Assembly (NCBI GenBank): GCA_016926185.1
Contig: JAFGPD010000038.1
Coordinates: 1 to 39,465, forward strand
From: Candidatus Woesebacteria bacterium
Lineage (GTDB): Bacteria; Patescibacteriota; Microgenomatia; UBA8517
DNA length: 39,465 nucleotides
Direction of reading: 5' to 3'
Below, one piece after another: positions 33,693-34,568 of this stretch (the first letter of the stretch is position 1; the number at the start of each line of letters is the position of its first letter). Below the pieces are notes generated by a model that saw nothing but the letters and a program-made list of their open reading frames with translations, was not told the DNA's origin and made no database searches. The position numbers were made by a program, and so were the translations under genes.

Positions 33693-33710
33693 GCAGGGTC
33701 GGAGGGAATC
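33693..33710. repeat. Isolated 18-bp copy of tRNA-Trp 3' end
   Basis: GCAGGGTCGGAGGGAATC repeats exactly the sequence at 33813-33830, which is the 3' end of tRNA-Trp plus two flanking bases. Such a duplicate of a tRNA 3' end is the usual scar of integration at a tRNA gene. Between the copies there are only about 100 bp. Confidence 0.65.
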
Positions 33711-33776
33711 CTCTTTCGTCAAGACTTCGGAAGGACACAGTCGAACCTTTGGGGATTCTCATTCCTCCTTACAAAC

Positions 33777-33808
33777 AAAAATCCCGGGTATAAATACACG
33801 GGATTTTT
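33777..33808 (-). terminator. Terminator after tRNA-Trp
   Basis: AAAAATCCCG-type stem: 10 bp (33777-33786 with 33799-33808), loop about 12 bases, T-rich on both sides. It directly follows tRNA-Trp on the minus strand. Confidence 0.85.
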
Positions 33809-33814
33809 ATCTGC

Positions 33815-33884
33815 AGGGTCGGAGGGAATCGAACCCCCAATAGCGGTTTTGGAGACCGCTGTTATACCATTTAACTACGACCCT
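33815..33884 (-). tRNA. trnW: tRNA-Trp (CCA)
   Basis: 70 nt. Acceptor AGGGTCG/CGACCCT, D-arm GTTA-AATGGTA-TAAC, anticodon stem GCGGT/ACCGC with loop CTCCAAA (anticodon CCA, reads UGG), 4-nt variable loop, T-arm GGGGG/CCCTC with TTCGATT. 3' CCA not encoded. Seven bases after the GIY-YIG gene stop. Confidence 0.96.
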
Positions 33885-33891
33885 ACATCTC

Positions 33892-34140
33892 TTATTTTAG
33901 TCGAATTCGCTTGAGCAATCCAGTTTTAGAAGAACCCCTTTGTTTGAGTTTTCTTTCGCGTTCGAAAGCCAGTTGTTTATTGGGATATGCTTCGTAGTAG
34001 TAAAGAATGGGGTTTGTTAATCTTTTTGACCAGAGACTTTTTCCGTTTTTATGTTCTTTAAGTCTTCTTTTAAGGTTTTTAGTGTATCCAATATAATGTT
34101 TGGTTTTATCTTCGTTAGCCAGGATATAAACATAATACAT
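33892..34140 (-). CDS. Single-domain GIY-YIG nuclease
   Basis: 82 residues from ATG 34140 (MYYVYILANEDKTKHYIGYT). The GIY-YIG core is present: Y-x-Y near the start, YIGYT, NLKRRLKEHKNGKS with the catalytic Arg, and FERERKLKQRG with the Glu. Single-domain members are common in CPR genomes and are often mobile. It lies between a tRNA-Trp-like 5' half (34184-34218) and the intact tRNA-Trp, all on the minus strand. The upstream extension of its frame reads through the tRNA half and is not considered coding. Confidence 0.9.
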   Translation of the reverse strand: MYYVYILANEDKTKHYIGYTKNLKRRLKEHKNGKSLWSKRLTNPILYYYEAYPNKQLAFERERKLKQRGSSKTGLLKRIRLK

Positions 34141-34158
34141 AAGAAATTCCGGTTTTGG

Positions 34159-34184
34159 ATCGAGCCTTTCGCGAAAGGCTCGAT
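34159..34184. repeat. Perfect 26-bp palindrome beside the tRNA half
   Basis: Half-site ATCGAGCCTTTCG and its exact complement, with no spacer. It forms a long stem. It begins exactly where the similarity to tRNA-Trp ends, after the CCA anticodon. Confidence 0.85.
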
Positions 34185-34218
34185 GGAGACCGCCATGATA
34201 CCATTTCATCACGGACCT
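34184..34218 (-). pseudogene. tRNA-Trp-like 5' half
   Basis: Minus strand: AGGTCCG, D-arm ATGA-AATGGTA-TCAT, then GCGGTCTCCA. It matches tRNA-Trp over acceptor 5' strand, D-loop, anticodon stem 5' strand and anticodon, then the sequence becomes a palindrome. It has no 3' half. Either a fragment left by integration of the neighbouring GIY-YIG gene or a degenerate duplicate. Confidence 0.6.
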
Positions 34219-34305
34219 ATGAATACAATTATAACATTGGGCATTATGTATCACCAGAATGGAGAAACACTCTTTTGCTTTAACCTGTTGATATAGTTTG
34301 ATGTA

Positions 34306-34340: not shown

Positions 34341-34568
34341 ATGCTTACAAAAACAGATTTAAGTCAAATTACAAAAATTGTAAAATCTGAAAGCCAGTCA
34401 CTGGAGAATAAATTAAACAAGAAATTCGATAAAATGGATAAAAGGTTTGATAAATTAGAAAGAAAATTGGATTATGCAATCAATTTTCTAGATAGAGATT
34501 ATCTTAAGCTTCTTGATAGGGTAGAGGCAATTGAAGAGCACCTTCATCTTAAACCGGCATCGATCTAA
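34341..34568 (+). CDS. Small coiled-coil protein
   Basis: 75 residues. LENKLNKKFDKMDKRFDKLERKLDYAI shows continuous heptads with Leu/Phe at a and d positions, so a coiled coil over most of the length. No family assignment; small coiled-coil proteins of this type are common near nucleases and phage-derived genes but that is not specific. It converges with gmk, 18 bases apart. Confidence 0.7.
   Translation: MLTKTDLSQITKIVKSESQSLENKLNKKFDKMDKRFDKLERKLDYAINFLDRDYLKLLDRVEAIEEHLHLKPASI

Follow-up and report, generated by a model that had tools for sequence, protein, structure and literature searches.

Stand-alone GIY-YIG nuclease genes among tRNA relics in Candidatus Woesebacteria and related bacteria probably belong to homing-type units that split and replace tRNA genes

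tRNA genes are usually viewed as vertically inherited genes and as passive docking sites, and group I introns with endonucleases occur in the anticodon loops of tRNA genes. In phage T4, the GIY-YIG nuclease SegB cuts within tRNA genes at the sequence RAWTSGAAC, the complement of the T-loop consensus (PMC13096335), and in phages T4 and T6 it drives the inheritance or amplification of the tRNA region (PMC13096335; PMC2988022). In the mitochondria of Allomyces and Glomus, mobile ORFs associated with duplicated gene ends (at atp6, atp9, cox2, and nad3) bring an endonuclease gene into an essential gene and supply a foreign replacement for the part that they displace, with the native part staying behind as a relic (PMC3630166). 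In CPR bacteria, selfish endonucleases, including GIY-YIG proteins, are located in introns or intervening sequences of rRNA genes; the paper that describes them regards GIY-YIG proteins as outside spread by homing and leaves tRNA unmentioned (PMC11270868). A search of the open-access literature did not reveal a report of tRNA-gene-splitting GIY-YIG units in bacteria.

Our analysis of a 39,465-nt stretch of Candidatus Woesebacteria DNA (the window) reveals a compact unit on the minus strand (34218 to 33693) in which a 5′ relic of tRNA-Trp, a palindrome, the continuation of the relic, a GIY-YIG ORF, tRNA-Trp, a hairpin bearing a T-run, and an 18-nt duplicate of the 3′ end of the tRNA follow one another in the direction of transcription (Table 1). 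The parts that an earlier note had named (the GIY-YIG gene, the intact tRNA-Trp, the 26-bp palindrome, and the 18-bp 3′ copy) are all present as judged from the sequence, ARAGORN, Rfam, and Pfam. The GIY-YIG gene is the sole ORF of the unit, which is flanked by Maf and a guanylate-kinase-like gene. A 75-aa ORF with coiled-coil-like repeats and no Pfam match lies between the unit and the guanylate-kinase-like gene (34341-34568, plus strand).

Table 1. Features of the tRNA-Trp/GIY-YIG unit in the window, in the direction of transcription.
Feature	Positions	Strand	Evidence
tRNA-Trp 5′ relic, tRNA positions 1 to ~36, AGGTCCGTGATGAAATGGTATCATGGCGGTCTCCA	34184..34218	-	Direct repeat D1
Perfect 26-bp palindrome in the anticodon loop of the relic	34159..34184	.	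Inverted repeat I2
5′ relic resumed past the palindrome, TCCAAAACCGG	34149..34159	-	Direct repeat D5
Stand-alone GIY-YIG nuclease gene, 82 aa	33892..34140	-	Pfam PF01541, E 3.4e-16; ATG at 34140, stop ends at 33892
Intact tRNA-Trp (CCA)	33813..33884	-	ARAGORN; Rfam RF00005, 68.4 bits
Hairpin and T-run 3′ of tRNA-Trp, likely terminator	33767..33811	-	Inverted repeat I1 and inspection
GGTTCGA, possible T-arm remnant of the 3′ relic (tentative)	33741..33747	-	Sequence
tRNA-Trp 3′ relic, 18 nt, T-loop to discriminator	33693..33710	-	18/18 versus 33813-33830

The unit, together with related units in other genomes, resembles SegB in that the nuclease is a GIY-YIG protein, is stand-alone, and adjoins tRNA genes. 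SegB is located in phages, between tRNA genes, and neither tRNA splitting nor relics around a replacement copy are known for it, whereas the units here are chromosomal; furthermore, in contrast to SegB, the window protein and its relatives contain almost nothing beyond the catalytic domain. The fungal mobile ORFs affect mitochondrial protein genes and replace the C-terminal end alone, whereas the bacterial units would replace a whole tRNA or a tRNA end. With the CPR rRNA endonucleases, the units probably share both structural RNA genes as targets and the same broad host group. With group I introns, they share insertion in the anticodon loop, but the tRNA appears to be replaced, not spliced. 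A group I intron was rejected as an identity for the insertion in the window, the Rfam scan of the window listing two tRNAs only and no intron.

The degraded 5′ part of tRNA-Trp occupies 34149-34218 in total, palindrome included, and its first segment belongs to a 36-nt direct repeat (34184-34219 versus the tRNA 5′ half at 33850-33885; 78% identity). Scans of shuffled sequence or of other tRNAs over the same gap almost never yielded comparable relics, and the pattern is repeated over isotypes and genera, placing the similarity beyond chance. The palindrome breaks the relic directly 3′ of TCTCCA. The relic had previously been described as cut after the CCA anticodon; the interruption is indeed at that point, but the relic does not end there, and because tRNA sequence (TCCAAAACCGG) picks up again behind the palindrome, the palindrome splits the anticodon loop of the relic. 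In an alignment allowing one long insertion, the relic is traceable to tRNA position 41. Downstream of the intact tRNA-Trp, a hairpin with a T-run is seen by inspection, as the terminator assignment of the earlier note had it, but the consensus terminator scan did not list one. The heptamer GGTTCGA lies 30 nt upstream of the exact 18-mer, and a similar arrangement (GGTTCG, hairpin, and 3′ end) is present behind the tRNA-Glu of L007. The Maf neighbor gene is present in few relatives, and 27 of the 30 tRNA-Trp loci of relatives, which are not syntenic with the window, have no nuclease.

The palindrome consists of two 13-bp arms (34159-34171 and 34172-34184) with no mismatch and no spacer, for which the chance expectation is, by arithmetic estimate, ~6e-4 per 39 kb. 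In the predicted fold of the relic, the D-arm and anticodon stem are retained, and the palindrome forms an extended hairpin with an 11-bp stem that ends ~20 nt ahead of the ORF start. Hairpins upstream of homing-nuclease start sites in T4 act as translational brakes (PMC2988022), and, by analogy, the palindrome is a possible translational brake on the nuclease. A search of the genome allowing up to 3 mismatches did not reveal a second copy of the palindrome. The proposal that the palindrome is the end of an element has to be abandoned, given this single copy and the location inside the relic, and a dispersed REP-like palindrome family was rejected on the same observations.

Stems of at least 8 bp are present in the 150 nt before the nuclease in 11/18 relic loci versus 8/110 control stretches; hairpins at that place are general, and their sequence differs between elements. 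In three genomes (L098, L138, and L143), the identical palindrome CCTGCCTGCCGGCAGGCAGG follows GGTTAGA in the D-loop of an Ile or His relic, always at one position, and two further occurrences lie elsewhere; a few palindromes are therefore common to several loci. The 5′ relics of tRNA-Glu in L007 and of tRNA-Gln in L149, from two genera, carry similar hairpin inserts (TCCGAGCTT...GATCGGCATAATGG) at a common point of the D-arm. These inserts are probably homologous, and the nucleases of the two loci are each other's nearest relatives.

The genome that contains the window has ten GIY-YIG matches, and six of the eight clear loci examined lie within ~210 bp of a tRNA or tmRNA gene, on the same strand. 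In particular, a tRNA-Glu(CTC) locus has the layout of the window, with a 5′ fragment, hairpin, nuclease, intact tRNA, and degraded 3′ fragment; at a tRNA-Gly locus, two hairpins are inserted in the 5′ relic, and the 3′ half begins in the anticodon loop; and a tRNA-Asn locus has an intact tRNA, the nuclease, and then an exact 14-nt copy of the 3′ end. We surveyed 50 genomes of the family, related genomes included, with ~125 GIY-YIG matches listed and 126 genes after duplicate removal. Sixty-eight of the 126 genes are located within 300 bp of a tRNA or tmRNA gene, 66 of them on the same strand (36 upstream and 30 downstream), and the density of tRNA genes is 0.344 per adjacent 250-bp bin versus ~0.02-0.05 farther out, approximately tenfold over background. 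In a class-wide sample, 26/35 GIY-YIG genes are near a tRNA or tmRNA gene. As a negative control, we used relatives of a single protein from a named collection (mostly proteobacterial, chiefly Bradyrhizobium), of which only 3/77 have a tRNA gene within 300 bp, indicating that the tRNA association is not general to the GIY-YIG domain. The pairing of nuclease and tRNA that had drawn attention at tRNA-Trp is found at many isotypes across genera. Related GIY-YIG genes are also present 97-201 bp downstream of tmRNA in five genomes (L003, which is C48 of the window's own genome, L077, L094, L102, and L116), which suggests that tmRNA may also be a target.

The window protein belongs to PF01541 and carries all of the catalytic Y, Y, G, R, and E positions, which are retained in 126/126, 125/126, 121/126, 126/126, and 122/126 of the family genes, respectively. 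The nearest nuclease from another genus flanks the same isotype in 21/53 cases (3.5 expected, p<0.0005) and is on the same side of the tRNA in 43/53, and distinct nuclease clusters are associated with Gly, Cys, Ile, Arg, Asn/Gln, Lys, and tmRNA. A near-identical subfamily behind tRNA-Arg, -Glu, and -Lys in three genera has a dN of 0.05-0.09 with dS saturated, and is, as judged from these values, under strong purifying selection; its hairpin starts within the CACC end of the tRNA itself, and both arms change together. The dN and dS values and the tracking of isotypes across genera indicate that the proteins are conserved and that their placement follows tRNA genes. A second subfamily, GQTNN(D) (L004, L105, L106, and relatives), is often located by a Lys-Glu-Gln tRNA group, is widely conserved across genera, and may be domesticated. 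A search of viral contigs did not reveal a relative.

We searched for tRNA relics on the far side of the nuclease using an alignment that allows one long insertion, with other isotypes and shuffled sequence as nulls. Where the nuclease precedes the tRNA, a 5′ relic of the same tRNA is present upstream of the nuclease in 19/43 pairs (other-isotype null, 3/86; shuffled, 0), and in about half of the pairs this alignment detects no relic; where the nuclease follows the tRNA, a relic of the same tRNA is present beyond it in 6/40 (other-isotype null, 2/80; shuffled, 0). Relics were found for Glu, Tyr, Cys, Gln, Gly, His, Arg, Ile, Val, Trp, Leu, Ala, and Asn. At a score of at least 14, relics accompany 24/80 tRNAs near a GIY-YIG gene versus 11/95 tRNAs far from any; the relics at distant tRNAs may be emptied sites or the result of a separate process. 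In the window's own genome, exact copies of the 3′ end lie ~60-125 bp downstream of tRNA-Arg TCT (17 nt, L026) and tRNA-Cys GCA (14 nt, L028) with no nuclease, and these are possible emptied sites. The same genome contains a partial second tRNA-Val(TAC) directly downstream of the intact gene (C9:124-190, L010/L037; 35/38 nt identical), which scores slightly under the tRNA cut-off.

Comparison of close relatives reveals sites in three conditions. In genus g8, the tRNA-Tyr site is empty in G057, with the Thr-Tyr tRNA pair intact; is occupied in G007, where the nuclease lies between a 5′ relic and a second relic ahead of the tyrosine gene; and in G058 contains a different tRNA-Tyr between a 5′ relic and the native 3′ half, with no nuclease. 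The tRNA-Gln site of this genus is empty in G057, is occupied in G058, and retains a relic without nuclease in G007. In genus g15, tRNA-Cys is split exactly at 34/35 around the nuclease and an intact copy in G060 and is unsplit in G014. Presence and absence in close relatives, a trait of free-standing homing endonucleases, is thus found at tRNA-Tyr, tRNA-Gln, and tRNA-Cys, and the empty, occupied, and emptied sites are the stages that would be expected of a homing cycle. The tRNA-Ile site of G022 was sought in its congener G068, with no match.

In several loci, the intact tRNA is of a different sequence type from the relics. Specifically, inspection of L083 indicates that the acceptor ends of the two relic halves largely pair with each other (5/7 pairs) and not with the intact tRNA-Gly. 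A foreign intact gene with a native relic, a trait of the fungal mobile ORFs, is found at G058 tRNA-Tyr and L083 tRNA-Gly, and the types in the window also differ: at least two tRNA-Trp sequence types exist in the family, and the joined 5′ relic of the window matches the tRNA-Trp of L280 at 40/41 positions and its own intact neighbor at 33/41. L280, which belongs to another family, is a GIY-YIG-bearing tRNA-Trp locus that shares the 41-nt spacing, and the intact tRNA-Trp of the window matches the type of G007, G020, and G058. The relic type may be that of the native gene, with the other type introduced by the unit, or the relic may have arrived with the unit.

These observations bear on local tandem duplication of a tRNA gene followed by decay, in which the GIY-YIG gene lands in slack DNA by chance or preference and does not cause the split. 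The relic is identical to the intact copy in L055, L056, and L049 (at L055 and L056, local duplication or gene conversion is a possible alternative), and relics occur at some tRNAs far from GIY-YIG genes. We nevertheless consider duplication an unlikely source of the pattern: in G058 tRNA-Tyr and L083, an intact tRNA of a different type lies inside two native halves, the relics are specifically on the far side of the nuclease, and the subfamilies of the nuclease follow isotype between genera.

Most 3′ relics start in the T-arm or T-loop, at tRNA positions ~51-60, and a second group starts in the anticodon loop, at 34/35. Homing at the anticodon, as the earlier note framed it, therefore describes one of two break regions, and not the one where most 3′ relics start. 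Both loops are known attachment positions in tRNA genes, and the order of intact tRNA, GIY-YIG gene, and exact 3′ end copy in L008, L137, and L141 also resembles the outcome of integration by a tyrosine recombinase, in which a decayed integrative element would have left the 3′ relic as its attachment-site repeat and the GIY-YIG gene as residual cargo. This explanation is very improbable: the units are ~200-450 bp, have GIY-YIG as their sole ORF, and occur at unrelated tRNAs in many genera; ORFs and Pfam matches at the window locus include no integrase; and integration at a tRNA 3′ end does not leave the commonest type of relic, namely a 5′ part that lies upstream of the nuclease. We give even less credence to a domesticated host function, in which the nuclease would stay beside tRNA genes owing to an action on tRNA, DNA repair, or expression, with the relics as by-products, since strong purifying selection on the protein, recurrence of GQTNN near the Lys-Glu-Gln group, and same-strand placement suggestive of co-transcription are set against patchy presence within a genus, relics left after nuclease loss, and 0 to 14 copies per genome.

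The reading that we favor, and consider likely, is that a homing-type GIY-YIG unit splits tRNA genes, with most breaks in the T-loop or anticodon loop, and supplies a replacement tRNA that restores function. Strong support for the entry of a nuclease-bearing unit into the tRNA gene and the rebuilding of the tRNA comes from recurrence of the layout at many tRNAs, from empty, occupied, and emptied sites, including those for tRNA-Tyr and tRNA-Gln within one genus, and from replaced tRNA types. Homing would be the most economical account; we infer cleavage, the repair step, the direction of transfer, and the role of the hairpins from sequence comparison. The unit would be a very small mobile element comprising a stand-alone GIY-YIG gene with either a working tRNA gene or the end of a tRNA. 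In an empty allele, the nuclease would cut the tRNA gene, chiefly in the T-loop or anticodon loop, and repair templated by the occupied allele would install the nuclease and the working tRNA. Of the native tRNA, a 5′ relic would persist upstream, often together with a 3′ relic downstream, and the intact tRNA from the unit would allow the cell to survive. Hairpins would gather in, or replace, the loops of the relic, where they could keep it from adopting a tRNA fold and may also restrain nuclease translation; later loss of the nuclease would leave a tRNA beside relics. By analogy, the unit would work like T4 SegB and the fungal mitochondrial mobile ORFs combined.

On the broader proposition, that these units (a single GIY-YIG gene joined to a replacement tRNA or the end of one) form a widespread class of minimal selfish elements that has gone unrecognized, is specialized for tRNA and tmRNA genes, and has isotype-tuned subfamilies, and that by repeated splitting and replacement of single-copy tRNA genes they drive the turnover and horizontal replacement of tRNAs throughout a class of small-genome bacteria, our judgment is evenly balanced. 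If the favored reading is correct, a single-gene element splits an essential single-copy tRNA gene and returns a different working tRNA, which would provide a natural model of target-plus-rescue homing. It would also give a function to the very common annotation "GIY-YIG domain protein" and would account for the tRNA relics and the patchy distribution of tRNA sequence types in these bacteria.
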